From NCBI RefSeq assembly GCF_024359545.1, contig NZ_JAKQZG010000003.1, positions 310,001-374,000 of the forward strand: a stretch of 64,000 nucleotides of DNA, in the 5' to 3' direction. Origin of the DNA: Jiella marina (lineage in GTDB: Bacteria; Pseudomonadota; Alphaproteobacteria; Rhizobiales; Rhizobiaceae). Shown in pieces: positions 7,808 through 63,224 of the stretch. The notes under the pieces were generated by a model. That model saw only the letters and a list, made by a program, of their open reading frames with translations. It did no database searches and was not told the DNA's origin. The position numbers and the translations under genes were made by a program. Each line of letters begins with the position of its first letter. Within the stretch, counting starts at the first letter, position 1.

Positions 7808-9297
7808 CAGGCGGCCTCTCCCTCGAAGGAGGCGTGCAGCACCTTCTGCTCGCTCAGCTGATCGCGCTCGATGTCGGCGGCGATCAGCCCGTTGCGGAAG
7901 ACATAGACGTGGTTGCAGTTCACGAGCTCGTCGAACTCCGTCGTGTACCAGAGAAAGGCGCGACCGTTTTCCGCTTCCTGCCGGATGCGCTCATAGACCT
8001 CGCGCTTGGTGCCTACGTCGACGCCGCGCATCGGATCGTCCATGGCGATGATCTCCGCATCCGAGGCCAGAGCGCGGGCGAACAGCGCCTTCTGCTGGTT
8101 GCCGCCGGAGAGCGTGAGGATGTTGTCGCCCATGTCGGGCGTGCGGATCTTCAGGGTCTCGCGCCAGCGATCCTCCATCTCGCGTTCGCGGCCTTTTTCC
8201 AGAAGTCCGAGGCGGGAGAGCGCCGAGAGCGAGCGCACCGTGACGTTCTGGCCGATCGTCCAGAGCGGGAAGATGCCGTCGGCCTGCCGGTCGCCGGCGA
8301 CGAAGGCGATCTTGCCGTTCACCGAGGCGTATCGCGAGCGGTGGCGCGCGGCATTGTGGATGAGGCGGAGGAGGGCGGTCTGGCCATGGCCGGCGAGACC
8401 CGCGAGGCCGACGATTTCGCCGGGATGGAGTTCGAGACGCTGGTCATCCGTCTGGCGGGGCGGGCGGGCGCTGACGATCGGCTCGCCCCTGCGCTGGCTT
8501 TCACTCGCCTGAGACTGCGGGGCCGGGGTATCTTCGTCGGTGACATGGCCCATCGAGGCTACGAGACTGTGCCGGTCGAACTTGTCCGCCGGGCGTTCCT
8601 CGACGATCAGCCCGTCGCGCATGACCGCGATGCGGTCGCAGGTGCCGAAGATGTCGCCCAATATGTGTGAGATCAGGATGACGCTGCCGCCTGCTTCAAC
8701 GAAGCGTTTGACGTAGGCCAGGAGCTGCGAGGCGACCTGCTGGTCGAGCGAGGAGGTGGGCTCGTCGAGGATGACCAGCCGCGGCTCGCTTTCAGTTGCG
8801 GAAAAATTGGCGGCGATTTCCACCATCTGCCGGCGACCGATCGAGAGATCGCCGACGACCGCTCCGGCCGATATGCCGTGGTCGGGGAAGATCTCGTCAA
8901 GTTTGGTGGCGATCAGCCGGGCGGCCTGCCGCCGCCAGCCGAAACCACGGATCGAGCCGTGCCGCAGCCGGGTGTTTTCCGCGACCGTGAGGTTGGGGCA
9001 GAGAGAGAGTTCCTGGAACACGCAGCGGATGCCGGCGTCGTGGGCACGGGCGACGGAATGGTCGGAGGCCGCCACCACATCGCCGTTCAGCCGGACTTCG
9101 CCGCGGTCGTGGGCGAGCGTTCCGGCAAGAACCTGCATGAGTGTCGACTTGCCGGCGCCGTTATGGCCGACGACACCGACGCATTCGCCGGGCCGGACAC
9201 TAAAATCGACGCCATCGAGAGCCTTCACGGCGCCAAAGGATTTGGCGACATCGTTCAGTTCCACGATCGGCCGGTCGGACGAGGCGGATGGGGACAT
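7807..9297 (-). CDS. Sugar ABC transporter ATP-binding protein (two nucleotide-binding domains)
   Basis: 496 residues, the usual length for RbsA/MglA-type double ATPases. The first domain has Walker [10 protein letters not shown] (~44-52), signature [12 protein letters not shown] and Walker [13 protein letters not shown]. The second domain has a degenerate P-loop ([11 protein letters not shown]), with signature [15 protein letters not shown] and [13 protein letters not shown]. One competent and one degenerate P-loop is normal in CUT2 ATPases. It energises uptake through the two permeases downstream. The signature serine-glycine (LSIGR instead of LSGG) in domain 1 is a mild deviation also seen in relatives. 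Confidence 0.93.
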
Positions 9298-9384
9298 GGC
9301 AGTTCGCGCGGATGGAGGTCGGATGGGGGGAGAAGCCGGCCCCGCTCGCCCGATGGATCAGGTGGGCGGGCGAGGCCGGATGCG

Positions 9385-10407
9385 TCATTTCGCCGAGGAA
9401 ATCAGCTCCTGGGCCTCTTCCCTGGTATATTCCTTGTTGGTGACGCCGCCCTCGGGCGTCATCTCGAGCCCCTGGTCGAGACCGTCCTGATCGATCCTGA
9501 GGGTCGGGACCTGCAGATCCTTCGGCACGTCGGCGCCGGCGAGGATCTGCTGGGCGACCCAGAAGCCGAGGGTGGAGACGCCCGGTGCAATCGACTGGGA
9601 GAAGGTCTCGTAGCCGTTCTCGTCCTTCTGCTCCTTCCACCACTGCAACTCGTCCGAACGGTTGCCCATGATGATGGTCGGAACTTCGCGCCCGGCGGCC
9701 TCGAAGGCCCGCGCTGCGCCATAGCCGTCACCGCCCTGGGTCACGACGCCCACCACGTCGGGCAGGCTCGGCAGGACGCTCGCCACGGATTTCTGGGCAA
9801 CGGTCTGCGTCCAGTCACCCTGGACCTCGCGGGCGATCTCAAACTGCGGGTGCTTTTCGATGCCTTCCAGAATGCCCGCATGGATCTGCTCGTCCACCGA
9901 AGTGCCCGGCAGGCCGCGGATCTCGAGCAACGGGCCGCCATCGGGATAGCGCTCGGCCAGATAGTCGATCTGGTCGACGCCCATCTTCTTGAAGTCGACG
10001 GCGATCCGCCAGGCGCATTCCTCGGTCACGGTCGCGTCGAAGGAGACGACGGTGATGCCGGCGTCGCAGGCTTCCTTGACGGCGCCGTTGAGGGCCGTCG
10101 GCGAAGCGGCGTTGAGGACGATCGCGTCATAGCCCTGCAGGATCATGTTCTGAAGCTGCGCGGCCTGCTCGGTGGCGGAGTTCTCGGCCGTGGTGTTCGC
10201 GTCGGCGGAGGCGACGACACCGTCTTCGACGGCCTTCGCGGTCGCCTCCTGCCAGCTCTTGATCATCGCCTGGCGCCAGGAATTGCCGGCGTAATTGTTC
10301 GAGAGCGCCACGTTCTTGTCGCTGGTATCGGCATCCTGGGCGAATGCCGGCATGGCGGCCGACAGGGCCAGCGCCCCGGCCAGGCAGATCAGTTTCGTTC
10401 GCACCAT
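9385..10407 (-). CDS. Periplasmic sugar-binding protein of the ABC transporter
   Basis: 340 residues with a clear signal peptide (KLICLAGALALSAAMPAFAQ, cleavage after AFA). The body is a type I periplasmic-binding fold: VALSNNYAGNSWRQAMIKSW, MILQGYDAIVLNAASPTAL, ITVVSFDATV and VGVVTQGGDGYGAARAF. This places it with the ribose/galactofuranose (YtfQ-like) binding proteins. The start is fixed by AAAGGAGGAG 6 bases before ATG. It heads the four-gene ABC operon, 87 bases before the ATPase gene. The ligand is probably a sugar or sugar derivative; this is inference from family. Confidence 0.92.
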   Translation of the reverse strand: MVRTKLICLAGALALSAAMPAFAQDADTSDKNVALSNNYAGNSWRQAMIKSWQEATAKAVEDGVVASADANTTAENSATEQAAQLQNMILQGYDAIVLNAASPTALNGAVKEACDAGITVVSFDATVTEECAWRIAVDFKKMGVDQIDYLAERYPDGGPLLEIRGLPGTSVDEQIHAGILEGIEKHPQFEIAREVQGDWTQTVAQKSVASVLPSLPDVVGVVTQGGDGYGAARAFEAAGREVPTIIMGNRSDELQWWKEQKDENGYETFSQSIAPGVSTLGFWVAQQILAGADVPKDLQVPTLRIDQDGLDQGLEMTPEGGVTNKEYTREEAQELISSAK

Positions 10408-19878: not shown

Positions 19879-19963
19879 GCGGTCGTGGCGGAATTGGTAG
19901 ACGCGCAGCGTTGAGGTCGCTGTGGGGCAACCCGTGGAAGTTCGAGTCTTCTCGACCGCACCA
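19879..19963 (+). tRNA. tRNA-Leu (anticodon GAG); prophage integration site
   Basis: 85-nt class II tRNA. The acceptor stem pairs GCGGTCG (19879-19885) with CGACCGC (19953-19959), then A and encoded CCA (19961-19963). The anticodon stem CAGCG/CGCTG encloses TTGAGGT, anticodon GAG (19913-19915). The long variable arm and GTTCGAGTC T-loop are present. An integrase gene lies 80 bases downstream, the usual arrangement when the tRNA 3' half is attB. Confidence 0.97.
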
Positions 19964-20043
19964 TTCAATTGCCAAGACATTGGTATCGTTGAGGAATTTT
20001 CCTCGAACCCCGTACCTGGAAGCAGGGTGCGGGGATAGGCTGT
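19939..20043. other. Putative attL region (tRNA-Leu 3' end plus flank)
   Basis: The T-arm to CCA end of tRNA-Leu is the likely crossover core. The flank contains a near-perfect hairpin, CCCCGTACCTG/CAGGGTGCGGGG (about 20009-20035), between the tRNA and the integrase stop codon. No matching copy of the core was found elsewhere in the window, so the core length is not defined. Confidence 0.5.
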
Positions 20044-21081
20044 TCACCCGGCGTTCCGATCCATCTTCGTGATGGCGGCCCTGGCGAGTCTGCGGCGGTC
20101 GGCGGCGCGGGTGTAGAGCGAGGCCATCGCGCCGCCCTGCCAGCCGAAGATCGCTTCCAGTTCGGAGACCGTGGCGCCGGCATTCGCCGCTCGGGTGGCG
20201 CCGATCTTGCGCACGCCGTGAGCCGACTTTTGGACGCCGGCGGCGCGCGCTGCGGTGCGGAAGCGGTTGCCGAACGTCTCCTTGGTCAGGGGCTTGCCGC
20301 GCTCGCCGCAGATGAAGGCGAGATCTCCGGTCGGGCCGGCGGAGAGCGTTGCGGCCAGGACCGGCAGGATCGGGATTGCGACCTCGACCATGTAGCCGCT
20401 CTTTTCCGTCCGGATCGAGGCGACGCCCTCGCGGACGTGCTGACGGCCGAGGCGAACGGCATCGCCGCGTCTGAGGCCCGTGTAGAGCAGCACGTCGAGC
20501 CAGACCCGTTCGCGCGTGCCGAGCGGCCAGCGTTTTTCGTAGCGCTCGACCTCCTCTTCGGTCCAGACCGGGAAGCCTTCGCCTTTCGCGCGCCTGGGGT
20601 TTTTCACGCCTGCCGTCGGGTCGACGGCGACGAGCCCGGCGTCGAGCGCCCAGCGAAAGAGGCCGCGCATCGCGTCGAGGAAGTTGCGGGCCTGAGCGGG
20701 CGTCGTGGCGCGTTTCTCGCGTCCGGCGACGATGACGGCGCGGGTGAAGGACGCGTAGGGCTGGCGACCGGCGGCCGCGACGACGCCGTGAAAGATGTTT
20801 TGGCGCTGGCGACGCGTGGCGACGGACAGGGCCGCCCATGCACCCGTCTCGCGGTATCGGTCCAGCAGCCACTCGAACGAGCCCGACGCCGCTCGCGGGG
20901 AAGGCTCCTCGGCCTTCCCCTCGATCGCGGCTTGATAGGCCGCCATGAATTCCGGAGATCCGTAGTCGCCGCGGATGCGGATGCGGGGACCGGCGCCCTT
21001 GCGCACGTACCATACGGTCGTCCCGTGGCGGGTGGTTTCTTTCAAGAGGTAGGGCGGTCGGCGGCGCGGCATGTCCGGCAT
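20044..21081 (-). CDS. int: Tyrosine-type site-specific integrase
   Basis: 345 residues. Catalytic residues of the tyrosine recombinase family are visible: TGLRRGD (Arg ~204), SAHGVRK (His288-x-x-Arg291), a GW motif (~314-315) and the tyrosine in SLYTR (Tyr ~323). The core-binding domain (~65-155) includes TPAQARNFLDAMRGLFRWAL. It catalyses phage integration and excision at the adjacent tRNA-Leu. The ATG at 21081 overlaps the stop of the upstream gene by one base, so int is translated as the last gene of a long early operon rather than from a solitary promoter. Confidence 0.95.
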   Translation of the reverse strand: MPDMPRRRPPYLLKETTRHGTTVWYVRKGAGPRIRIRGDYGSPEFMAAYQAAIEGKAEEPSPRAASGSFEWLLDRYRETGAWAALSVATRRQRQNIFHGVVAAAGRQPYASFTRAVIVAGREKRATTPAQARNFLDAMRGLFRWALDAGLVAVDPTAGVKNPRRAKGEGFPVWTEEEVERYEKRWPLGTRERVWLDVLLYTGLRRGDAVRLGRQHVREGVASIRTEKSGYMVEVAIPILPVLAATLSAGPTGDLAFICGERGKPLTKETFGNRFRTAARAAGVQKSAHGVRKIGATRAANAGATVSELEAIFGWQGGAMASLYTRAADRRRLARAAITKMDRNAG

Positions 21082-21284
21082 CAAATCACCAGACCTTCCG
21101 GCCAGGCAAGTGCCGGCTTGTCCGGCGCGTTGCGTGGCTTCTCGACGAGGTGAACGATCATGGTTCCGTCCGGGCGGATCTCGACCTCGACCGCCCCGGC
21201 CTGCTTCGCGGCGCGGATCGTGCGCGCGACATCGGCTTGCGTGATGGTGGCGGCCGTTCGCGGCATTTCAAGTGATCCGTCCAT
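21081..21284 (-). CDS. Small phage protein next to integrase (possible excisionase-position gene)
   Basis: 67 residues, or 61 if it starts at MPRTAATITQADVAR (21266). The segment ITQADVARTIRAAKQAGAVEVEIRPDGTMIVHL is typical of a short protein found beside integrases in rhizobial prophages. It combines a helix with a beta hairpin, but I see no clear HTH and assign no activity. Position suggests a directionality factor; this is inference. Overlaps int by one base. Confidence 0.65.
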   Translation of the reverse strand: MDGSLEMPRTAATITQADVARTIRAAKQAGAVEVEIRPDGTMIVHLVEKPRNAPDKPALAWPEGLVI

Positions 21285-21510
21285 CCTGGCAATTTCGATA
21301 TTGCGCGACTACCGATGCCGGTGCAGGAGCACCGGTGCCGGCGTAGACAAGGCCCGCGCCGTCGCACAGCTCGCACCTGCCAGGCAGATTGGCATAACCC
21401 ATGCCGCAGCCAAGATTGTACATTTGCGGGCGCTCACCTCTGCCGTCGCAAAGGTCGCATTCTTTCACGTATCGAAGGATCAGGGGTGCTTCGGCCACCG
21501 CACTCACCAT
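21268..21510 (-). CDS. Small protein with DnaJ-type zinc-binding motifs
   Basis: 80 residues with two CxxCxGxG-like knuckles, CDLCDGRG and CELCDGAGL, about 27 residues apart, the pattern of one DnaJ zinc centre (four cysteines). A fifth Cys lies in LGCGMGY. No J-domain is present. Such stand-alone knuckles occur in phage early operons and may bind nucleic acid or protein; function unknown. Its start overlaps the end of the clamp gene by 7 bases. Confidence 0.7.
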   Translation of the reverse strand: MVSAVAEAPLILRYVKECDLCDGRGERPQMYNLGCGMGYANLPGRCELCDGAGLVYAGTGAPAPASVVAQYRNCQDGRIT

Positions 21511-22631
21511 TTCAATCGCAGGGGCATGATGACCATTTCGTGGTCGGGCTCGTCTTCGCTGACGATCCAGATCGGGGTCGTGGGATCGTTCAGGGCGATA
21601 GCGGCTCTCGTGCTGCCGATGGCCTGGGCGGTCGGGTGGAGGTAGCGGGCGCTGAGGCCGATGACGATGTCGGCCTCACCCTCGATCTCCAGCTCGTCGG
21701 TCGCGTCGCCGATCTCGGATTTCGTGAAGAGCTGGAGACTGCCACCGTCGAAGGTGCATCGGATGTCGCGGTGCGTGTTCTCGTCGTTCGGCGCGTAGAT
21801 CAGCATGCGTTCGAGCGCGCCCTTGAGCGCGGCGATGTCGACGGTCGCGCGCTGCGGATTGTGGCGCGGAAAGAGGCGGGCATAGTCGGGAAAGTCGCCC
21901 TCGACGAGCCGGGAGGTAATCGAAAGCGTCGGCGTCGACAGGGTGATGTGGGCGTCGTTCAGCGACACGGTCACGGCCGCGCCCTTCTTGCCGGCCAGCA
22001 GACGCCATTCCCTGACGATCTGAATCGGCACGATGACCGGGGGCATGCCTGCCGCGCCTTCGGGCAAGGGGAAATGGATCTTCGAGACGACCTTGGCGTC
22101 GGTCGCCACGGCGACGAGGCGCGACGGATCGGCGTCCTTGTGCTCGTGCCAGAACATGCCGTTCAGATAGTAGCGGACCTCGTCATTCGACATGGCGTAG
22201 CCGACGCGGTCGGCCATGCGGTCGAGAACGTCCGATCCAAGCTCGAAACTGTGGGTGGCTTCGGTGACGGCGACGCGCGGGTGATCGTCCGCCGGCATGA
22301 CGTTGATGCGCGCCGAGGCGCGTCCGCCCCTGACCGTCATCCGCTGTTCGTCTGCGGTGATCCGCACCGGCCCGTCGGGCATGCGCTTGATTGAGGCCTC
22401 GAGCGTCTGGGCATCGACTGAGATCGCGCCGGCCTCGCCGACTTCCTCGGCTTCGCCATGGGCGGTGATCGAGAGGTTCAGATCGGTTCCCATGACGGAG
22501 ATGCGGCGATCCGCGTCGACCGTGACGAGCAGATTATTCAGGATCGGGATCTTCTGGCGGCGCACCGCCTTGCGGGCGGCCTCGACCAGAGGCGCGAAGA
22601 CCGATCGATGACAAAGAAAGGCCAGCGTCAC
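21504..22631 (-). CDS. dnaN-like: DNA polymerase III beta subunit-like sliding clamp (phage-encoded)
   Basis: 375 residues, the normal DnaN length, covering three clamp domains. Family features: KIPILNNLLVTVDADRRISVMGTDLNLSI (domain 1), LDRMADRVGYAMSNDEVRYYLNGMFW (domain 2), RLVEGDFPDYARLFPR, and the conserved C terminus MVIMPLRLKW (MPxRL in DnaN). A ring clamp tethers polymerases to DNA, so this copy could serve phage replication or redirect host clamp partners. The host must have its own dnaN near the origin. Genes overlap on both sides (ATGA), placing it firmly in the phage operon. Confidence 0.9.
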   Translation of the reverse strand: MTLAFLCHRSVFAPLVEAARKAVRRQKIPILNNLLVTVDADRRISVMGTDLNLSITAHGEAEEVGEAGAISVDAQTLEASIKRMPDGPVRITADEQRMTVRGGRASARINVMPADDHPRVAVTEATHSFELGSDVLDRMADRVGYAMSNDEVRYYLNGMFWHEHKDADPSRLVAVATDAKVVSKIHFPLPEGAAGMPPVIVPIQIVREWRLLAGKKGAAVTVSLNDAHITLSTPTLSITSRLVEGDFPDYARLFPRHNPQRATVDIAALKGALERMLIYAPNDENTHRDIRCTFDGGSLQLFTKSEIGDATDELEIEGEADIVIGLSARYLHPTAQAIGSTRAAIALNDPTTPIWIVSEDEPDHEMVIMPLRLKW

Positions 22632-27794: not shown

Positions 27795-29161
27795 GTGTTC
27801 ATCCGGATTATCAGGCGTTTCTTCAGGCGAAGATGCACGAGGGTACCGAGCAGGGGTTCGAGCCGCGTTTCATGCCGCCAGAGGCCTTCGACTTCCAGCA
27901 GGCGATGATCGACTACGCCGTGCGCGGTGGTCGGCGGGCCTTGTTCGAGGATTGCGGGCTGGGCAAGACGCTGCAGTATCTCGCATGGGCTCAGAACGTG
28001 GTGGAACACACCAACTGCCCGGTTCTGATTTTGACGCCGTTCGCCGTCGCGGCTCAGGTCGTGCGGGAGGCGGAGCGTTTCGGGATCGAGGTCAGGCGCT
28101 CGATAGACGGTTCCGTGCCCGCCAAGATCGTGATCACCAATTACGAGCGACTGTCGGCCTTCGACCCGAACGACTTCGCAGGAGTGGTCTGCGATGAAAG
28201 CTCGATCCTGAAAGGGTTCGACGGAGCGCGGCGGGGTGAAATCACCGATTTCATGCGCAAGGTCCCGTACCGGCTGCTCGCGACGGCGACGGCGGCGCCG
28301 AACGACTACATCGAGCTCGGCACCTCCTCCGAGGCCCTCGGTCACATGGGCCATATGGACATGTTGAACCGGTTCTTCCGCAACGACCAGAACAATAGCG
28401 CGACGCGCCGGATGTATGGCGAGGCGCCGAAATGGCGGTTCAAGGGGCATGGCGAACAGCCGTTCTGGCGGTGGGTATGTTCTTGGGCGCGGGCGCTGCG
28501 GCAGCCCTCCGATCTCGGCTTTGACAATGGCCGCTATGCGCTTCCCGCGCTGATCGAGCGCGAGCACTATGTCGATGTCGACACGCCCGCCAACGGCATG
28601 CTGTTTCACCTCCCCGCCGTCACGCTTCCCGAACAGCGCGAGGAAAAGAAACGCACGATCCGCGAGCGTTGCGAGCGGGCCGCGGCGCTCGCGGATCACA
28701 AGCGGCCGGTTCTGATCTGGTGCCAGTTCAACGAGGAGGCGCACCTTCTCGAGCAAATGATTCCGGATGCCGTCCAGGTCTCGGGATCGCAGAAGGACGA
28801 GGTCAAGGAAGAGCGCTTCATGGGCTTCGTAGATGGCGGTATCCGGGCGCTCGTCACCAAGCACAGGATCGGGGCGCTGGGCCTCAATTTCCAGCACTGC
28901 GCCCATGTGATCGAGTTTCCCTCGCACTCCTATGAGCAGCATTACCAAGGCGTTCGCCGGTGCTGGCGGTTCGGCCAGACGCGCGACGTGACGGTCGACA
29001 CGGTTCTGACCGAAGGCGAGCGCCGGATCATCGAAAACCGCAAGCGCAAGGCCGCTCAGGCGCGCGCGATGTTTGAAAACCTCGTGGCCGAAATGAACGA
29101 TGCGATGGTGGTCTCGGCCGCCCGCAGCTTCGCCACTCCCATGGAGCTTCCGGCATGGTGA
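27791..29161 (+). CDS. SNF2-family DNA helicase/translocase
   Basis: 456 residues from MSVHPDYQAF. SF2 motifs: FEDCGLGKT (Walker A, ~52-60), LILTPFAVAAQ (Ia), VVCDESS (Walker B as DESS, ~132-138), LLATATAAPND (motif III, TAT), and the Snf2-type motif VI HYQGVRRCWRFGQT. The C-terminal RecA lobe starts near RPVLIWCQFNEEAHLLEQ. An ATP-driven duplex translocase is expected. It overlaps the following methyltransferase gene by 7 bases, a pairing seen repeatedly in phages, so the two may act together in replication, recombination or DNA modification. Confidence 0.88.
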   Translation: MSVHPDYQAFLQAKMHEGTEQGFEPRFMPPEAFDFQQAMIDYAVRGGRRALFEDCGLGKTLQYLAWAQNVVEHTNCPVLILTPFAVAAQVVREAERFGIEVRRSIDGSVPAKIVITNYERLSAFDPNDFAGVVCDESSILKGFDGARRGEITDFMRKVPYRLLATATAAPNDYIELGTSSEALGHMGHMDMLNRFFRNDQNNSATRRMYGEAPKWRFKGHGEQPFWRWVCSWARALRQPSDLGFDNGRYALPALIEREHYVDVDTPANGMLFHLPAVTLPEQREEKKRTIRERCERAAALADHKRPVLIWCQFNEEAHLLEQMIPDAVQVSGSQKDEVKEERFMGFVDGGIRALVTKHRIGALGLNFQHCAHVIEFPSHSYEQHYQGVRRCWRFGQTRDVTVDTVLTEGERRIIENRKRKAAQARAMFENLVAEMNDAMVVSAARSFATPMELPAW

Positions 29162-30138
29162 ATGTGCTCGATCAGGTCGTGACCGACAGTTACGCGATCT
29201 ACAATGGCGACTGCATCGACGTCCTGTCAGGGCTGGCCGATGCTTCGGTGCATCTTTCGGTCTATTCGCCACCCTTCGGCGGGCTCTACAATTATTCGAG
29301 CGATGCCCGCGATCTGTCGAACTGCGTCGACTATGACCAGTTCTTCACCCATTACGAATATGTCGTGCGCGAGCTGGCGCGGGTGACGCTGCCCGGGCGG
29401 TGTTCGGCGGTGCACTGCATGGACGTACCGACCGGCAACAGCGGGTCCGACGCTTATATCGACTTTCCCGGCGACATCATCCGCCTGCACCAGCGCATGG
29501 GCTTTCACTTTGTGGCCCGGCACGGCATCTGGAAGGAGCCGCTGTGGGTGCGCAACCGGACCATGCAGAAGAACCTCGCGCACAAGACCGCTGTCGACGA
29601 CAGCGCGCAATGCGGCGTCGCCTCGGCCGACTACCTGATCATCTTTCGCAAGCGCGGCGAGAATCCGATCCCGGTTACGCATCCGACCGGGTTCCTCGAT
29701 TATGCCGGCGACGACGAGGCGATGCCGGCGGAGGTGCGGCGGTTTCGCGGCTTCGAGGGTGACCAGAAGCAGAACAAGTTCTCGCACTGGATCTGGCGGC
29801 AATACGCCTCCTCCTTCTGGTACGACATCCGCATGGGCCATGTCCTGCCCTACGAGGCGTCGAAGGACCCGGACGACGAAAAGCACGTTCACCCGCTGCA
29901 GCTCGACGTGATCGACCGCGCTATTCAGATGCGATCAAACCCGGGCGAAGTGGTGTTCACGCCGTTCATGGGTGTCGGCTCGGAGGTCTATTCGGCCGTT
30001 TGTGCCGGGCGGCGCGGGATTGGGGCGGAACTGAAGACGAGCTACTTCCGGCAGGCAGTGCGCAATCTTGCCGCCGCCAAGGCGGGGACGCGCATGACCT
30101 CGTCTCAAGAGGACCTCCTGAGCGAGGCCGCCGAATGA
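29155..30138 (+). CDS. Amino-type DNA methyltransferase (N6-A or N4-C, beta class)
   Basis: 327 residues. Catalytic motif IV is SPPF (~38-41, in VYSPPFGGLYNY) and the AdoMet motif I follows later as FMGVGSEVYSAVCAGRRGIGAEL, so motif IV precedes motif I (beta class). SPPF rather than DPPY is frequent among N4-cytosine enzymes, but N6-adenine is not excluded. It has no linked restriction endonuclease and is probably an orphan phage methylase that protects against host restriction or alters gene control. It is fused by overlap to the SNF2 gene. Confidence 0.87.
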   Translation: MVNVLDQVVTDSYAIYNGDCIDVLSGLADASVHLSVYSPPFGGLYNYSSDARDLSNCVDYDQFFTHYEYVVRELARVTLPGRCSAVHCMDVPTGNSGSDAYIDFPGDIIRLHQRMGFHFVARHGIWKEPLWVRNRTMQKNLAHKTAVDDSAQCGVASADYLIIFRKRGENPIPVTHPTGFLDYAGDDEAMPAEVRRFRGFEGDQKQNKFSHWIWRQYASSFWYDIRMGHVLPYEASKDPDDEKHVHPLQLDVIDRAIQMRSNPGEVVFTPFMGVGSEVYSAVCAGRRGIGAELKTSYFRQAVRNLAAAKAGTRMTSSQEDLLSEAAE

Positions 30139-30404
30139 CGAACGATCTCTATGATCCGGCGATCGTGCGGTTTGCGCGGGCGCGGCTGGTCGCGCGGGCG
30201 GACGGGCGGGTCAATCTCGAAAGCGCGCTCGTCGCGTTTGCCGAATTCTCCGCCTCCGGACTGCCGCGACGCGTCGTCAGCGATCAGCTGATCGCGATGG
30301 CGCGGCGGCTGGGCGGCGGTTTCGACGACGGGGTTCTGACGGGGCTCGCCTGGACGGAAAACCTGTTCGTGCTGGACAAGCGGTGCAAGGGGGTGGGGCG
30401 ATGA
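30135..30404 (+). CDS. Phage hypothetical protein
   Basis: 89 residues, MTNDLYDPAIVRFARARLVARADGR, with ASALVAFAEF-like and SDQLIAMARRLGGGFDDGVL-like segments typical of a small helical DNA-associated protein. Both ends overlap flanking methyltransferase genes by ATGA, so it may be an accessory to one of them. Family not recognised. Confidence 0.65.
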   Translation: MTNDLYDPAIVRFARARLVARADGRVNLESALVAFAEFSASGLPRRVVSDQLIAMARRLGGGFDDGVLTGLAWTENLFVLDKRCKGVGR

Positions 30405-32245
30405 CGGGCGGCATTCCGCTGATCGTCGATTCCTTCGCCGGCGGCGGGGGCGCCTCGACCGGGATCGAGATGGCGCTCGGCCGCTCGCCGGACATCGCCA
30501 TCAACCATTCGGCCGACGCGCTGGCGATGCATCAGGTCAACCATCCTGACACGTTGCACCTGTCGAAGAACATCTGGCAGGTCGATCCGCTGGAGGTCGT
30601 CGGCCACAGGCCGGTCGGGCTCGCCTGGTTCTCGCCGGACTGCAAGCACTTCTCGAAGGCCAAGGGCGGGCGGCCGGTCAAGCGCAACATCCGCGATCTC
30701 GCCTGGGTCGTCGTGCTCTGGGCGAAGCGGGTCCGGCCCGCCGTGATCATCCTCGAGAACGTCGAGGAGTTCCAGAGCTGGGGGCCGCTGGTCGAGACGA
30801 AGCCGGGCGTCTTCGTGCCGTGTCCGGACCGGCGCGGCCAGACCTTCCGGCAGTGGGTCAGGGAACTGAAGCGGCTCGGCTACAGGGTCGAGTTCCGAGA
30901 GCTTCGGGCCTGCGACTACGGCGCGCCGACGATCCGCAAGCGGTTCTTCATGATCGCCCGGCGCGACGGCAAGCCGATCGTCTGGCCGGCGCCGACCCAC
31001 GGGCGACCGGACGATCCCGAGGTGATCGCGGGTCGCAAGGCGCCGTGGCGCACTGCGGCCGAGATCATCGACTGGTCGCTGCCATGCCCGTCCATCTTCG
31101 ACACGGCGGAGGAGATCAGGGCAAAGCACGGCGTCCGGGCGATCCGGCCGCTGGCGGACGCGACGATGCGGCGGATCGCGCGGGGCATGGTGCGCTACGT
31201 GCTGGAGGCGAAGCGGCCGTTTCTGGTGCCGGTGGCGCATGCCGGCGACAGCCGAGTCCACTCGATCGACGAGCCGATCCGGACGCAGACGGCGCACGGC
31301 CGCAGCGACCATGCCGTCGTGGCGCCGTCGATCATCAACGTCGCGAACTCGAAGACGACGGGCCGGGCGCCGAATGCGTGGAGTTCGGACGAGCCCCTCC
31401 GGACGATCACGAGCGCATCCGGTCACGCCGTTGCCGCCGCTCATCTGACGAAGTTCCAGACCGGATCGACCGGTGCACCGCTCGACGAGCCGGCGCCGAC
31501 AATCACGGCCAACAGTCACATCAAGCGGCCTGGCGGAGCGGCGCCGGTCGGGCTGGTCGCCGCGACGATGTTGCAGACGGGTTACGGCGAGCGGGACGGC
31601 CAGGCGCCGCGCGCGCTCGACATCGGCCAGCCGATCGGAACGCAGGTGGCCGGTGGCGCCAAGCACGGCGTCGTCGCAGCCTTCCTCGCGCAGCACAACA
31701 ACGACTCGCGGCGGATCGGCGGCGTCAATCCGGGCCGTGCCGCGAGTGAACCGGTGGCGACGCTGACGGCATCGGGCGCGCAGCAGCAGGTGGTGGCGGC
31801 ACACCTCTCACGGCAATTCGGTGAAGGAACCGGTCGGGATCTCCACAGGCCTACACCAACCGACACCGCTGTGGTCAACAAGGCGGCGCTGATCTCGGCC
31901 TTCCTGACGAAGTACTACGGCACCGGCGACGGCGCCGCCGTCGACGTGCCGCTGCACACTGACACGACGAAGGACCGGATGGGCCTCGTCACCCTCGACA
32001 CTGACGGCCAGACCTTCGCGATCGCCGACATCGGCATGCGGATGCTGACACCGCGCGAGCGGTTCCGCGCGCAGGGCTTTCCGGACGACTACGTGATTGA
32101 CCGGCGGCCCGACGGCTCGCCGATCTCGGCGACGGTGCAGGGCTCGTGCTGCGGCAACTCGGTCTGTCCGCCGCTGGCGGCCGCGCTGGTCGCGGCGAAC
32201 TGTGCCGATCTGGCCGTTCAGTCGGTGATGGAGGCGGCGGAATGA
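30401..32245 (+). CDS. C5-cytosine DNA methyltransferase with repeated target-recognition region
   Basis: 614 residues. Motif I SFAGGGGASTG (~11-21), motif IV SPDCKHFS with the catalytic Cys at ~81, motif VI LENVEEF (~118-124), motif VIII-like YGAPTIRKRFFMIA, and motif X GNSVCPPLAAAL at the end: all steps for AdoMet-dependent C5 methylation are present. The variable region between VIII and IX is unusually long and contains about six diverged units of the form EP-(I/L)-xTITA-x-GHAVVAAHL (e.g. DEPIRTQTAHGRSDHAVVA, DEPLRTITSASGHAVAAAHL). No cognate nuclease is adjacent. Confidence 0.93.
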   Translation: MTGGIPLIVDSFAGGGGASTGIEMALGRSPDIAINHSADALAMHQVNHPDTLHLSKNIWQVDPLEVVGHRPVGLAWFSPDCKHFSKAKGGRPVKRNIRDLAWVVVLWAKRVRPAVIILENVEEFQSWGPLVETKPGVFVPCPDRRGQTFRQWVRELKRLGYRVEFRELRACDYGAPTIRKRFFMIARRDGKPIVWPAPTHGRPDDPEVIAGRKAPWRTAAEIIDWSLPCPSIFDTAEEIRAKHGVRAIRPLADATMRRIARGMVRYVLEAKRPFLVPVAHAGDSRVHSIDEPIRTQTAHGRSDHAVVAPSIINVANSKTTGRAPNAWSSDEPLRTITSASGHAVAAAHLTKFQTGSTGAPLDEPAPTITANSHIKRPGGAAPVGLVAATMLQTGYGERDGQAPRALDIGQPIGTQVAGGAKHGVVAAFLAQHNNDSRRIGGVNPGRAASEPVATLTASGAQQQVVAAHLSRQFGEGTGRDLHRPTPTDTAVVNKAALISAFLTKYYGTGDGAAVDVPLHTDTTKDRMGLVTLDTDGQTFAIADIGMRMLTPRERFRAQGFPDDYVIDRRPDGSPISATVQGSCCGNSVCPPLAAALVAANCADLAVQSVMEAAE

Positions 32246-57504: not shown

Positions 57505-58896
57505 ATGCGCCCGATCAACGAAATCATCGTGCATTGCACGGCCACGCCGGCGGGCCGCGAGGTCAGCGTCGACACGATCCGCAGCTGGCACAAGCAGCGC
57601 GGATGGCGAGACATCGGCTATCATTGGGTCGTTCATCTCGACGGATCGGTGGAGGAGGGGCGACCTGTCGGGCAGGTCGGCGCCCACGTTGCCGGCCACA
57701 ACACCGGGACGATCGGCGTCGTCTATGTTGGCGGCGTCGACAAGGACATGCGCGCCAAGGACACGCGCACCGCGGCGCAGAAGGATGGATTGGAGAAACT
57801 CCTTCGCGATCTCATGTCGCACTATCCGTCCGTCACGAAGATCAGCGGGCACAATCAGTATGCCGCCAAGGCGTGCCCGTGCTTCGACGCTCGGCAGGAA
57901 TATGCGCAACTCCTCAGCGAGGTCGCGGCGCCGCCGACGGTGATCAATTCAGATGTCCCCGTCTCCGGCAAGGGCACGGTCACAGCCTCGACGCTCAATC
58001 TGCGCAGCGAGCCGAAGATGTCGGGACGCGACATCGGCGACATCCCGCGTGGCACGACGGTCGATATCTTCGGATCCGATGGCGACTGGCTCAAGATCAA
58101 GACGCCGGCTGGATATGAGGGATGGGTGGCGCGGCGCTATGTGGCCGTTGCCGGGTCTGATCCCATCGCGGATCCGAGCGCGCATTTCGAGACCACCGCG
58201 CCGGTCTACATGCGCCGGCTGATCGACGACATCCCGCAGTGGAGCGCGCTCGACGCGGCCGCGGCCTTCGGCAACTTCGGCCACGAGAGTGCCGGGCTTG
58301 AGATCCTCGAGGAAATCAGCGGCGGTGGCGGCTATGGCTGGCCGCAGTGGACCGGCTCGCGTCGGCGTGCCTACGAAACATGGTGCCGAGAGAATGGCCT
58401 CGATCCCGCATCCGACGAGGCGAACTATCGCTATGTCGTCATCGAGCTTCGCGGGCCGGAAGAGCGGACCATAGCAGCCGTCGCCAAGGCGAACGGCCTG
58501 GAGGCCAAAACCCTCGCATTCGAACGCTCTTTCGAGCGGGCTGGCGTCAAGCACGACGATCGCCGGCTCGATTGGGCAACGCGTGCCCTTGCCGCCTATC
58601 GCGCGGCGTATCCGAAACAGGAGATCGACATGTCGGCAGCACCAGCGGAAGAAGAGAAGACCGGTGGTCCGGTCGAGAAGATGATCGGCGCCGGGAAGGG
58701 CGCGGCTCAAGGGGCAGTTGGTGGCGTCACCATTGGCGGCGGCATCGTGATCATTGGCACGACGATGGGATGGCTACCGCCCGAAGCGGACACGGCCATG
58801 TTCGGCGCCGCGGTGACTGGTGTCCTCACTGGCTTTTCGAGCTTCGTCATGGCCTGCATCGGAGCATATCGCGCGCCGGCCAACGGCGGCTCCTGA
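57505..58896 (+). CDS. Modular endolysin: amidase + SH3 + lysozyme-like domain + C-terminal membrane hairpin
   Basis: 463 residues. Residues 1-140: Amidase_2/PGRP domain, NEIIVHCTATPAG (Zn His), IGYHWVVHLDGSVEEGRPVG, GHNTGTIGVVYVGG, ISGHNQYAAKACPCFDARQE (second His and Cys). Residues ~155-212: SH3, TASTLNLRSEP and GDIPRGTTVDIFGSDGDWLK. Residues ~230-370: phage tail-lysozyme-like domain, AAFGNFGHESAGLEILEEIS and GGYGWPQWTGSRRRAYETWC. Residues ~405-455: two hydrophobic helices, GGVTIGGGIVIIGTTMGWLP and AAVTGVLTGFSSFVMACIGA. It would cut both the amide and glycan bonds of peptidoglycan. The fused membrane part is unusual and could anchor it or act like a holin. Confidence 0.9.
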   Translation: MRPINEIIVHCTATPAGREVSVDTIRSWHKQRGWRDIGYHWVVHLDGSVEEGRPVGQVGAHVAGHNTGTIGVVYVGGVDKDMRAKDTRTAAQKDGLEKLLRDLMSHYPSVTKISGHNQYAAKACPCFDARQEYAQLLSEVAAPPTVINSDVPVSGKGTVTASTLNLRSEPKMSGRDIGDIPRGTTVDIFGSDGDWLKIKTPAGYEGWVARRYVAVAGSDPIADPSAHFETTAPVYMRRLIDDIPQWSALDAAAAFGNFGHESAGLEILEEISGGGGYGWPQWTGSRRRAYETWCRENGLDPASDEANYRYVVIELRGPEERTIAAVAKANGLEAKTLAFERSFERAGVKHDDRRLDWATRALAAYRAAYPKQEIDMSAAPAEEEKTGGPVEKMIGAGKGAAQGAVGGVTIGGGIVIIGTTMGWLPPEADTAMFGAAVTGVLTGFSSFVMACIGAYRAPANGGS

Positions 58897-58962: not shown

Positions 58963-59364
58963 ATGGAGGAAGTCATCAAGGACTATTGGCCAATCTTCCT
59001 GTCGTTTGCGCTGACACTGGGGGGCGTCTACGGGGCGTGGTTCGATCTGCGCGGCAGGTCGCTCTCCAACAGCCGGCAGATTTCGGATCTGGAACGAGAC
59101 CTCGAAAAGCAGGCCAAAGCGCTGCAGACCGAACTGGATCGTGAGATATCCGAGGTGGGGCGCAGAATCGAAAGCGCTGAGCTGCGGTCCGCAGCTGTGG
59201 GGGCAGAACTCAAGACCCACGAGCAGCGCTTCCATGATTACCGCGTCGAGGCTGCCGAGAAATTTGTGACCGCTGATCAGTTCGACAAGCTGCGAACGGA
59301 GATCTCCGCTGGCTTTCGGCGCCTGGAGGACAAGCTCGACTCCCGCACCGGCGGCCAGCAATAG
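58963..59364 (+). CDS. Membrane-anchored coiled-coil lysis-region protein
   Basis: 133 residues: one N-terminal membrane helix (PIFLSFALTLGGVYGAWF), then a long charged coiled coil (SNSRQISDLERDLEKQAKAL onward to KLRTEISAGFRRLEDKL). The topology, short cytoplasmic end, single span, long periplasmic helix, resembles an inner-membrane spanin (Rz) or a DUF2730-type phage protein. No Rz1 lipoprotein is visible nested inside. A 20-codon ORF (58896-58958) precedes it, overlapping the endolysin stop. The stop codon abuts a tRNA-like 16-mer. Confidence 0.7.
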   Translation: MEEVIKDYWPIFLSFALTLGGVYGAWFDLRGRSLSNSRQISDLERDLEKQAKALQTELDREISEVGRRIESAELRSAAVGAELKTHEQRFHDYRVEAAEKFVTADQFDKLRTEISAGFRRLEDKLDSRTGGQQ

Positions 59365-59507: not shown

Positions 59508-61958
59508 TCAATTTTGTGTCAGAGCTTGCTTTACTGCAATGACCTGCTGCTGCATATCACGATTGTGGCCCAGTTTAGCTGACGCCTTGGACACAATCTC
59601 CTGTAATCGAGCTAGTTGGTTGTGATCCATCTGTCCGCCTGCATCCAAGTAGCTCAGAACGCCACTGAAAATTACCCCGTAGGGCTGAGCTGCAACCCTA
59701 TTGCGACGCTCTTCGATCTCAATTGCCTCAGACAAACGTCTAAAGGCCTCGTCAAATGATGGCTGCATGTTCACGCCCGGCGCTAACATGTGCCCTACAA
59801 GTACCTTTCCCAATGTGGTTAGAGGGAATGGGTGGTGCTCGACAGCCACGGCGTGCCGCGCATGCGTGACAGCGTTCTCCAGATATTCCATGCGCTGAGT
59901 ATTGTTAGTAGTCATTTGATAACGTGCCAGGTTAAGCAAGGCGACTTGCTCCCAATAGCGCGAGTTCCACTCCCAAGCATACTGTACTTTATCATATAAG
60001 GCCTCGGCGTTGCCCTTGAGGTATTTCCCCACGACCGCGTCGAAATCAAACAGGCGTCCAGATAAACGCGCTTCGGGGGCGCGTGCCTTGATGGTCTCGC
60101 GATTCACCCAAGCGCCCAGCTCCTCTGCCAACTCGATAAAGATGCGAAGCATCTTGTCGGGATCACGCTCTGCCACCCGGTCGAGGATGCTCTCGGCGAG
60201 AACCGCATTCTCTGGAATGACAAATCGCTTGGCGTCGTCGTAGAAGTCCAACGGCAAGGGGTTGCTAGGTCCAAACTGGGTGCGCGACCCCTTCGTGCCG
60301 AAGGCCTTCATCAGGATTTCGTACCTTACGCCACCATAGAAACAGTGCTGAGCAAGGGCGGCTCCCAAGTAGCGGTCGAACGCCTCTGGTCCAGCGTCCG
60401 TCGTAATGCTATCCAATATCCGGTTGAGTGGCCGGAAATCGTTGAGTATGCGGCAGCAGACTACCGCGATCGGATCCTGCTGCACTTCGAGAACAAACTT
60501 GTCCTTATGCCTGAGTATGGTGCGGTCGCCGATGGCGCCCGCATCGACGTAACGGTCGATAAGTCTGCGCGCCTCGGTTCTCGACATCGGCAGCTTGCCG
60601 ATCTCGTCGTAGTTAACGGGGGCGAGCACTTGCTTTAGATAGTTCCCTCGATAGGCTCGTTCAGCACCGATGAAGAGAATATCGGCCTTCTTCAGACGGG
60701 CGACTAGGTCCACGACGGCGGTAGCCTGCTCAGCCAGGTTGTCGATAATGACGACGACGGGATCGTCGATGAGATTAAGAACGTCCGCAGTGCCCGCGCC
60801 GATACGGCTCAGAGCTGAGCAGAGAAGTGTTCGAACTCCTCTCCTAGCGAGTTCGAATGCAACCCGCCTGAGCACCGTCGTCTTGCCGGCACCCGCCACG
60901 TCCCCGATAAACATGATACGGCTCGCGTGCAGCGGGTTGGCGATACGCTTCTCAGCCTCAAGGAGCATCTCAGCTACGATGGGACGGGTGATGTCGAGGT
61001 TCGATTCCAGATCGCTCCAGCTCGGTATATGTCCGTACATAAAACGGGAGTTACTCGCTTGGGGAGCAGAGCCGGGAACGATCTCGAAGTCCGAATTGAA
61101 GGCCATTGCGGTGGCCTTGCTGACCCCGGCCGGTAGAAGTTTCCGGGCCTCGAGCGGAATGAGTTCAGTTGGGGTGGGTGCGCTCGGAAGTAGCGTCTTG
61201 AGGTATTCGAAAAATTCAACCGACCAACCATCGAAGAGCAGGAGATCATGCTTCTCGCAAAGTTTGCGAGAGAACGGTCCGTCAGAAGCAACCAAGATGG
61301 AGGGACCACGGTCATTGCGCGCGCTCTCGCTGGTGCGTTGGGCGAGATAGAAATCCAAGTCCACCTCGTCGAGAGAGGTGCCCGCGATGATCATGGGTTC
61401 CGATAACATGAATTGCGTGAGCACCGTCATCCACGGGTTCACTTTCATGATCTGGTTTAGATACTGTTCGCGTGAGAATACGTATCCGCGGTCCGCTTGC
61501 CCAACATATCCATGTAGATGGATGAGGAACAGCTCTTCCATGCTGGCCGGATTTGTGTAGATGTCGTTAAAGTGCTTCGGCACCAATCGCTGGTGCCCCT
61601 TACCGTCTTTATAGGCGTTCTCAAGCACGTCATCGACGTTCCAGGTGAAGACGCGCTTCCAGATGAACGAAGACATTAGTCGAGCCGTCTTGCCTGGGAC
61701 GCTGCAGGAAAGCCGATCTGTAATGTGCGTCTTCACCTGCTGCGGCGTCATGAGCTCGTAAAGCCGTTGCAGTGAATTACTCTTTGCCTTAGTCACGGCG
61801 GAGAGTTCAGCGGCGAGAGCCTCGCCACTAGGCAGCTTGCCGTGTTCGTTAGTAGAATCCATGCTGAAGCCAGCACCCAGCAGGAGGTTGTATTGTCCTG
61901 CCCGTAACGCAGACTTGATGGCTGCTTCCTGTTTTCCAGTGATTTTTGTAAATGGCAT
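59508..61958 (-). CDS. SIR2-like NADase + P-loop NTPase, probable antiphage defence protein
   Basis: 816 residues. Residues ~10-260 are a SIR2-like domain: LLLGAGFSMDS (GAGxS, ~26-36), FTWNVDDVLENAY (~104-116), IHLHGYVGQ with the catalytic-type His149, and AGTSLDEVDLDF (~192-203). Residues ~345-560 form a P-loop NTPase: IGDVAGAGKTT (Walker A, ~351-361) and VVVIIDNLAEQ (Walker B). The remainder is helical, TPR-like (MEYLENAVTHARHAVAVEHH, FRRLSEAIEIEERRNRVAAQ). The architecture, NADase effector, switch ATPase, helical sensor, matches SIR2-STAND defence proteins such as Avs5-type. Lower G+C than its neighbours, reverse strand, GGGGGGATGAG before ATG. Confidence 0.85.
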   Translation of the reverse strand: MPFTKITGKQEAAIKSALRAGQYNLLLGAGFSMDSTNEHGKLPSGEALAAELSAVTKAKSNSLQRLYELMTPQQVKTHITDRLSCSVPGKTARLMSSFIWKRVFTWNVDDVLENAYKDGKGHQRLVPKHFNDIYTNPASMEELFLIHLHGYVGQADRGYVFSREQYLNQIMKVNPWMTVLTQFMLSEPMIIAGTSLDEVDLDFYLAQRTSESARNDRGPSILVASDGPFSRKLCEKHDLLLFDGWSVEFFEYLKTLLPSAPTPTELIPLEARKLLPAGVSKATAMAFNSDFEIVPGSAPQASNSRFMYGHIPSWSDLESNLDITRPIVAEMLLEAEKRIANPLHASRIMFIGDVAGAGKTTVLRRVAFELARRGVRTLLCSALSRIGAGTADVLNLIDDPVVVIIDNLAEQATAVVDLVARLKKADILFIGAERAYRGNYLKQVLAPVNYDEIGKLPMSRTEARRLIDRYVDAGAIGDRTILRHKDKFVLEVQQDPIAVVCCRILNDFRPLNRILDSITTDAGPEAFDRYLGAALAQHCFYGGVRYEILMKAFGTKGSRTQFGPSNPLPLDFYDDAKRFVIPENAVLAESILDRVAERDPDKMLRIFIELAEELGAWVNRETIKARAPEARLSGRLFDFDAVVGKYLKGNAEALYDKVQYAWEWNSRYWEQVALLNLARYQMTTNNTQRMEYLENAVTHARHAVAVEHHPFPLTTLGKVLVGHMLAPGVNMQPSFDEAFRRLSEAIEIEERRNRVAAQPYGVIFSGVLSYLDAGGQMDHNQLARLQEIVSKASAKLGHNRDMQQQVIAVKQALTQN

Positions 61959-62244
61959 CTCATCCCCCCGAAATCGAGGAGCCTAACTCGCCATCGGCGA
62001 TATTGCTAGCTGCAGCGGGCTGTTCTGCTGGGCAGCTTGTCTTAAACTGACATTACTTAACGGAGCTGCTCGCCGCGCCTTATCAAATGGCGACCCATCT
62101 CCTTGGGATCGCACTTGAGGAGCTTTCCAAAATTATTCGATCCGGCGATGGGCGGAAGCACTAATGCCGTGCGGAGGGACAGTGCGGCGAACCAGCCTTC
62201 CCGAATCGGGATCGAAGAATAAAAAGGGAACATCGGAGGTGCCG
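61959..62244. other. Intergenic region, promoter side of the SIR2/NTPase gene
   Basis: About 285 bases between divergent genes. The minus strand has TTAAGT and a run of A/T (about 62,040-62,060) that could hold a promoter for the defence gene, but no clean -35/-10 pair. No repeat matching the tRNA-Leu end. Confidence 0.4.
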
Positions 62245-62493
62245 GTGTTCCAGACAATCGACGATTTGCGGCGCAACGAATGGTGGCTGGAGTTGCGCTG
62301 CCTCGAGTGCGAGCGCTGCGTTCACGTGCCGCATCCGATGCTGCCGCGGCGGTGCCGACCGGATCTTCCCATTCATCTTGCTGCGGCGTTCTTCCGCTGT
62401 CGATGCGGGAGCAAGCAGCTTCGCTCGCGTGCCGTCGATCTAATGGACCCGGGGCGGGCGCGGCCATCATGGGCGCGGGCTTGGTGGGAATGA
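62245..62493 (+). CDS. Small zinc-ribbon-like protein
   Basis: 82 residues from GTG 62245 with GGAGG 5 bases upstream; the frame extends to 62164 but without a ribosome-binding site. FQTIDDLRRNEWWLELRCLE, CERC, then LPRRC and FRCRCGSK give two CxxC-type pairs (CLEC/CERC and CRCG), a small zinc ribbon. Similar short proteins are common in rhizobial accessory DNA; function unknown. Confidence 0.55.
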   Translation: MFQTIDDLRRNEWWLELRCLECERCVHVPHPMLPRRCRPDLPIHLAAAFFRCRCGSKQLRSRAVDLMDPGRARPSWARAWWE

Positions 62494-62804: not shown

Positions 62805-63224
62805 ATGATCCGGCAAACCCTTCTCGCGTTCGCCCTCATGGCCGGTACGGCCCAGGCCCAGGAACTCAGTTCCTTCAGGACACCAGAGGATTGCGGCCTC
62901 TACCGCTACAAAGCGATCATCAAACGGGTCTACGACGGTGATACCGTATGGGCCGATATCGATCTCGGCTTCCACACGTGGCGCCATGACGAGTCCCTGC
63001 GGCTCTATGGGATCGACACGCCAGAAGTCAGAGGCGAGGAGCGGCCGGAAGGCCTCAAGGCCCGCGACGCCCTTCGCAAGCGCATCGACGGCAAGGAATT
63101 GATCATCTGCACGATCAAGGATGAACAGGGCAAGTTTGGGCGCTTCCTCGCGATCTTATGGGATGGCGAGGAGAACCTGAACGAGTGGCTTCTCAAGGAA
63201 GGGTATGCTGAGCCTTATGACTAG
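62805..63224 (+). CDS. Secreted SNase-type (thermonuclease-like) nuclease
   Basis: 139 residues. A signal peptide MIRQTLLAFALMAGTAQAQ is followed by the OB-fold nuclease: AIIKRVYDGDTVWADIDLGF (metal Asp), LRLYGIDTPEVRGEERPEGL (catalytic Arg and Glu region) and KFGRFLAILWDGEENLNEWL (second catalytic Arg). Such proteins hydrolyse DNA and RNA in the periplasm or outside the cell; close homologues are frequent in rhizobial chromosomes and prophages. All three catalytic-residue regions are present. Confidence 0.9.
   Translation: MIRQTLLAFALMAGTAQAQELSSFRTPEDCGLYRYKAIIKRVYDGDTVWADIDLGFHTWRHDESLRLYGIDTPEVRGEERPEGLKARDALRKRIDGKELIICTIKDEQGKFGRFLAILWDGEENLNEWLLKEGYAEPYD

Follow-up and report, generated by a model that had tools for sequence, protein, structure and literature searches.

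A candidate Avs5-like SIR2-STAND immune receptor gene carried by a Jiella marina prophage

The closest described relatives of the protein considered here are the Avs5 immune receptors, in which a SIR2 domain is followed by a STAND NTPase and a helical C terminus. According to the available text of one study (PMC12931631), PaAvs5 responds to a phage protein, and PaAvs5-1, which extends to residue 828, requires N110, D112, E202, G362/K363 and E410 for immunity, with E410Q tolerated; Y661, W675 and Q677 are conserved in PaAvs5-1. Avs5 activity is filament dependent, as stated in the accessible part of a second study (PMC12700824). The available sections of a third (PMC9122126) describe STAND proteins with C-terminal repeats in P4 satellites, with SIR2 replacing TIR.

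We analyzed a 64,000-nucleotide stretch of Jiella marina DNA (hereafter, the window), the reverse strand of which encodes an 816-residue SIR2-STAND protein, P0001, at positions 59508–61958 (ORF call, Pfam and codon comparison), exactly as reported in a preliminary description made from the sequence alone. Among 16S genes found on plasmid records, those of Aureimonas come nearest to the 16S of this genome (94–96% over 69–74% of the query), suggesting an alphaproteobacterium of the order Hyphomicrobiales. The ORF starts with ATG, contains no internal stops and is intact over its full length. Its closest relative, from Thauera butanivorans (L009:83-2527), shares 79.7% protein identity over 814 codons, with identities of 84, 90 and 47% at codon positions 1, 2 and 3 (NG86: dN, 0.126; dS, 2.75, saturated; ratio, 0.046). 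These codon-position identities, together with a dN/dS near 0.05, establish P0001 as a real gene under strong purifying selection. Identity between the two proteins is 86.5% for residues 1–260, 75.9% for 261–480, 81.9% for 481–640 and 72.4% for 641–814, making the presumed sensor end the most variable part. As the preliminary description held, the gene is compositionally foreign: its GC content is 55.0% against about 64% in its surroundings, and none of 223 same-size, non-overlapping windows was as low (minimum, 56.3%; 118 kb). The Thauera copy (49.7% versus 67.2% in its surroundings) and all eight viral-contig relatives measured are likewise GC-poorer than the DNA around them. A scan for promoters and terminators gave counts no higher than in shuffled sequences.

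Two Pfam domains were found above their gathering scores: SIR2_2, with its core at residues 102–228 (61275–61655, reverse strand; PF13289, E = 6.9e-14; 52.6 bits versus a cut-off of 24.5), and nSTAND_NTPase5 at residues 304–440 (60639–61049, reverse strand; PF25199, E = 1.1e-17; 64.7 bits versus 34). P0001 is thus of the SIR2_2 plus nSTAND_NTPase5 type, which agrees with its earlier designation as a single-gene SIR2-STAND defence candidate; the accession PF25199 was not mentioned in the literature searched. We assessed motif conservation in an alignment of 16 rows, comprising P0001 and 15 relatives. In the GAGFS NAD-binding motif (residues 28–32; 61863–61877, reverse strand), G28 and G30 are present in all 16 rows, as are N107 and D109 of the N107-V-D109 motif (61632–61640, reverse strand). 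In the H149-G150 pair (61509–61514, reverse strand), G150 is invariant and position 149 is histidine in 11 rows and asparagine in five, an HG/NG alternation that also occurs in Avs5 according to the available text of PMC12931631. Position 198 is glutamate in 9/16 rows and aspartate in 7/16; position 406 is aspartate in 12, glutamate in two and a gap in two; and position 434 is arginine in 12. The P-loop, GDVAGAGKT (residues 352–360; 60879–60905, reverse strand), retains G358 and K359 in every row, but its D353 replaces the first Walker A glycine, which is present in 14/16 rows and is aspartate in P0001 and Thauera only, so that this P-loop is not wholly canonical. The SIR2 motifs had been called intact, and GAGFS, N107, D109 and H149-G150 are indeed present, as are the P-loop as such and D406, the exception being that first glycine.

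Paired by motif and position, the counterparts of the PaAvs5 residues are N107 and D109 (for N110 and D112), E198, G358/K359 in Walker A and D406 in Walker B. R434 corresponds to the arginine finger (PaAvs5 R438) by position only, a match that is absent from the hhalign alignment with Avs5. The presumed sensor, a C-terminal region from about residue 583 to 816 (59511–60212, reverse strand), is predicted to be helical with pLDDT mostly above 80, in line with the helical C terminus proposed earlier. The region has no Pfam repeat match, the Pfam scan of P0001 having found neither TPR nor other repeats, and it keeps a Y655-x13-W669-x-Q671 pattern (59946–59996, reverse strand) with the spacing of Y661/W675/Q677 in PaAvs5; Y655 and Q671 are each kept in 14/16 rows and W669 in only six. 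The full-length AlphaFold2 model has a mean pLDDT of 77.2 and a pTM of 0.52, with the SIR2 part poorly predicted around residues 121–140. A separate model of residues 301–816 was discarded as too poor for use (pLDDT, 59.6).

We next compared the protein with Avs5 through a profile, A2, built from nine short proteins of the P0001 family. Its alignment with a set of three Avs5-type proteins is collinear across 655 columns (hhalign probability, 99.6; E = 6.1e-24). These three were stand-ins for characterized Avs5: L045 was called Avs5-type because of a full-length match to the NCBIfam Avs5 equivalog NF041814 (300.7 bits) and a match to PDB entry 9nah (E = 3.1e-46), L052 was found together with it, and L051 is a 654-residue ORF matching NF041814 at 138 bits. 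Against the PDB, the same profile ranked EfAvs5 (9jap) first (E = 4.9e-27), with both the SIR2 and NTPase-repeat parts matched. Foldseek, run with the full-length model, returned EfAvs5(SIR2-STAND) at the top (E = 2.8e-21), followed by the AVAST5 filament (E = 1.5e-15) and then SAMD9, DSR2 and ThsA; because full-length TM-scores against Avs5 are low (0.27–0.30), this result backs the order of the domains and not their arrangement. EfAvs5 is detected by profiles and structure only, a search with the single P0001 sequence yielding no match to it at E 1, and direct comparison with one Avs5-type protein gave 22% identity confined to the SIR2 part.

The curated Avs5 models that we ran miss the protein widely. 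With NF041814, whose cut-off is 1000 bits, it scored 36.8 bits over the SIR2 part only (residues 12–208); the full-length Avs5-type L045 also falls short of that cut-off. PADLOC models gave weak matches of the SIR2 part to ThsA and Avs5, far below what a full-length match would score. Defence finders built on such models would therefore probably overlook P0001. It shares with Avs5 (EfAvs5, 9jap; AVAST5 filament, 9nah/9nc9) the SIR2-STAND-helical order, overall length, the motifs for NAD, a lysine in Walker A, one acidic residue in Walker B, the Y/W/Q spacing and a collinear profile; it differs in D353, in scoring far below the NF041814 cut-off and in lying outside the Avs5-type branch of our trees, a placement that AU tests do not settle. 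We label it Avs5-like, and not Avs5, because of the NF041814 score and its unsettled tree position, while noting that by analogy it should work like Avs5. The preliminary description had regarded 816 residues as compact and as a hint of a new subtype. This is an ordinary length for a SIR2-STAND protein (Avs5, about 760–870 residues; NCBIfam model, 763 positions; PADLOC model, 771; EfAvs5 9jap, 869), and given these similar lengths we do not take compactness to mark a new subtype.

In a tree of 34 rows, where characterized Avs5 was represented by relatives only, P0001 and its Thauera counterpart paired with full support; their branch is long (2.31 changes per site) and lies apart from L045/L052 and from L044 and its kin, L044 itself matching EfAvs5 at E = 1.9e-43. 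Four further sequences (L055–L058) grouped with P0001 (support, 83/91), a placement flagged for long branches, and rows L008, L026, L028 and L062 are incomplete sequences cut by the ends of their stretches. A second, quick tree of 27 rows, which omitted seven of the 34 (L038, L040, L042 and L055–L058) and also represented characterized Avs5 by relatives, again placed the pair outside the Avs5-type branch; the branch parting 20 rows, P0001 included, from the Avs5-type rows had an SH-aLRT of 86 and was not starred. AU tests rejected neither joining the pair to the Avs5-type branch (P = 0.137) nor joining it to the short nSTAND5 clade (P = 0.267). From these sequence comparisons, P0001 and Thauera form a lone deep lineage of unsettled position, of which we found two members only.

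Other SIR2-bearing defence systems resemble P0001 less. DSR2 is similar in having a SIR2 NADase at the N terminus and helices at the C terminus (Foldseek E values from about 1e-8), but P0001 has a STAND NTPase, is shorter than the Dsr2 models of 1215 and 1222 positions and matched none of them at E 1 (NCBIfam and PADLOC). Thoeris ThsA also has a SIR2 domain (match of P0001, 23.8 bits), whereas in P0001 SIR2 is followed by an NTPase and Pfam found no SLOG or macro domain. The six adjoining ORFs scanned gave no Pfam match that would indicate a TIR (ThsB) partner, and one more is a nuclease, with shorter ORFs lying outside the scan. For Nezha (SIR2-HerA), the scanned neighbours gave no ATPase match, and the NTPase of P0001 is fused to SIR2. 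Since the six ORFs around the gene lack Pfam matches, no partner gene was recognized.

The gene lies within a prophage. A tRNA-Leu(gag) gene at 19879–19963 (forward strand; ARAGORN) is the integration site, and its 3′ end carries an 18-bp attL core, TTCTCGACCGCACCATTC, at 19949–19966 (forward strand). Only two exact copies occur in the genome, the other being attR at 65453–65470 (L010:1453-1470), beyond the window. This repeat bounds a 45.5-kb prophage in which PHROG matches identified an integrase (20044–21084, reverse strand; phrog_1, E = 2.3e-31), a processivity factor, terminase, portal, protease, major head protein, tape measure and an amidase/endolysin (57505–58896, forward strand; phrog_822, E = 5.7e-59). 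The processivity factor for DNA polymerase is encoded near the integrase (21504–22631, reverse strand; phrog_947, E = 5.3e-64). The prophage also carries two methyltransferase genes on the forward strand, at 29155–30138 (N6_N4_Mtase, E = 1.7e-14) and 30383–32245 (C-5 cytosine DNA_methylase, E = 4.4e-25). P0001 itself matched no PHROG family, so that its link to the phage rests on its location. The gene sits after the lysis genes, between the last late-strand gene (58963–59364, forward strand; no PHROG or Pfam match) and attR, and is antisense to the late genes, as had been stated. The earlier placement as cargo on the prophage edge is right as to the prophage and too narrow as to the edge, given that attR is about 3.5 kb away. 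A phage nuclease gene occupies the interval between P0001 and attR (62805–63224, forward strand; phrog_452 endonuclease, E = 1.1e-31). Also near attR is a second nuclease gene, encoding an SNase homologue barely above the Pfam cut-off (L010:540-1028). Elsewhere in the same genome, 301 bp (contig C10, 38704–39004) are 83% identical to window positions 62193–62493.

DNA similarity between the Jiella and Thauera loci lies within 59604–61968 (L009:73-2437), covering the gene plus the ten bases that precede it, with no other DNA match between the loci at E 1e-3; the upstream Thauera flank is only 82 bp, and the comparison thus tests the downstream flank. With similarity limited to the gene, it appears to move by itself. 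Its Thauera neighbours are also phage genes (tape measure, endolysin, tail, head and protease), with five of the seven scanned matching PHROGs. DNA resembling the last late gene is found where a phage ends in a different genome of the genus. In L103, a related phage end from another genome of this genus, the amidase DNA is shared and the next 11 kb hold no similarity to the cargo gene, so that the slot appears variable, on this one informative case; the contig of a further locus, L104, ends about 0.7 kb past the shared gene. P0001 resembles the P4/P2 hotspot proteins of PMC9122126, as described in its available sections, in combining SIR2, instead of TIR, with STAND and C-terminal repeats or helices in phage cargo slots, and differs in that its prophage is a tailed one from an alphaproteobacterium and its slot follows the lysis genes. 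We consider it conceivable, at somewhat less than even chances, that P0001 and its Thauera counterpart represent a separate SIR2-STAND subtype, distinct from the Avs5 clades described so far. Such a subtype would have a nonstandard P-loop (aspartate for the first glycine) and its own trigger, and would spread as a one-gene cassette between different alpha- and betaproteobacterial phages.

Close relatives are rare. Among ten genomes of the genus one carries the gene, a second having a 31-base match only, and a scan of genome contigs that reaches close relatives only reduced nine pattern matches to a single relative, that of Thauera. Any match to P0001, its own genome included, occurred in 8 of 201 related whole genomes and in 9 of 398 genomes of the phylum, the others at 22–33% identity. 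The Avs5 model gave three and one matches over 299 and 48 genomes, none above the cut-off. Profile A2 matched 128 of 385 genomes, but among the matches listed only those in G000, G648 (in two pieces) and G617 span most of the model, and we read most of the listed matches as short P-loop hits due to chance. Viral contigs searched with P0001 alone yielded no relative, and 50,697 INPHARED phage records matched neither P0001 nor the viral-contig relative L032. In IMG/VR, two alignment-based scans recovered 21 distinct loci with distant relatives; of ten of these proteins scanned with Pfam, all had SIR2_2 and seven had nSTAND_NTPase5 above the cut-off. Neighbours were scanned at four of the 21 loci, chosen after the ORFs of five had shown phage-like neighbours, and the result is therefore no estimate of frequency. 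In L054 and L032 the gene has a gpA-like replication protein on one side and a gpQ-like portal on the other, the slot that the available text of PMC9122126 describes as a defence hotspot of P2; L041 lies beside baseplate genes, and L053 beside integrases only.

Taken together, these comparisons make it probable that P0001, encoded by one gene of the prophage, is an Avs5-like immune receptor that senses phage and hydrolyses NAD+ in abortive infection. Such phage-carried receptors are a known kind, of which P0001 is a very divergent example; the preliminary description was largely correct but made too much of the novelty. The killing or arrest of infected cells by NAD+ depletion that it proposed would be expected from homology to Avs5, ThsA and DSR2. 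By analogy with Avs5, as characterized in the accessible text of PMC12931631, the C-terminal helical region would recognize some component of the attacking phage. Nucleotide binding and a conformational switch would follow in the STAND NTPase, and the protein would multimerize, probably as a filament as in Avs5, with the SIR2 domain of the assembled form becoming an NAD+ hydrolase. An infected lysogen would stop supporting the other phage, protecting the host population of the resident prophage from superinfection. NADase activity, nucleotide switch, filament and abortive infection are all predicted from characterized Avs5. Divergent kin in other prophages are probably missed by finders that use curated Avs5 models, and P0001 offers a test case for two questions: which signals these receptors detect in bacteria other than Escherichia and Pseudomonas, and by what route a receptor encoded by one gene passes from one phage to a different one.

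Other functions fit the data less well. The SIR2 fold would also suit a metabolic or regulatory sirtuin, such as a deacetylase, carried by chance, the placement that the preliminary description had named as refuting its proposal. The zinc ribbon of Zn-dependent deacetylase sirtuins has CxxC pairs; P0001 has no CxxC anywhere and only two cysteines among residues 1–260, Pfam found no sirtuin model besides SIR2_2 at E 1, and the fused STAND NTPase and prophage cargo setting give a layout that largely contradicts such a role, which we regard as extremely improbable. Scarcely more credible is the view that the gene has no function and is decaying or was inserted by chance: presence in one of ten genomes of the genus is compatible with it, but the gene is intact over its full length and under strong purifying selection.

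SIR2 enzymes use NAD+ in several ways, and the domain might instead perform ADP-ribosylation or make a cyclic ADP-ribose signal. We find this quite unlikely, in that the closest homologues (Avs5, ThsA and DSR2) hydrolyse NAD+ and no partner effector was recognized, Pfam having matched neither the last late gene nor any of five neighbouring ORFs on the attR side. There is a small but real chance that P0001 is a defence NADase whose switch answers plasmids, other mobile elements or host damage, and not phages, as might be suggested by the longer relatives that Vibrio, Klebsiella, Acinetobacter and Methylobacterium carry on plasmids. Pointing the other way, both close copies lie among phage genes, 21 distant relatives are in viral contigs and, according to the available text of PMC12931631, the trigger of PaAvs5 is a phage protein. 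A phage-sensing, Avs5-like receptor remains our preferred reading of P0001.

Uncharacterized SIR2_2 plus nSTAND_NTPase5 proteins occur in genomes, viral contigs and plasmids, most with 818–851 or about 1035–1056 residues. Like P0001, 16 of the 19 scanned (9/9 and 7/10) have both Pfam domains above the cut-off, but their identity to it is 15–20%, Thauera excepted, and the long ones have about 220 additional residues with TPR matches. The long clade (L014, L019, L020, L021, L022, L037, L039 and L061) has six of its eight members on plasmids or viral contigs; of the six scanned with Pfam, all have TPR matches, some below the cut-off, and two have a weak cold-shock-like match at the C terminus. 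A sister species in the same genus (G003) encodes a different, 822-residue SIR2-STAND protein of the short clade, with NG in place of HG (L013:5904-8372). In L015, the SIR2 part and the NTPase-repeat part have separate ORFs that overlap (6945–8117, 390 residues, and 8081–9583, 500 residues), representing either a two-gene form or a broken gene. The family member of G648 (contig C108, L060) is in two pieces, 3322–4347 and 7091–8488, about 2.7 kb apart, and looks as if it had been interrupted.
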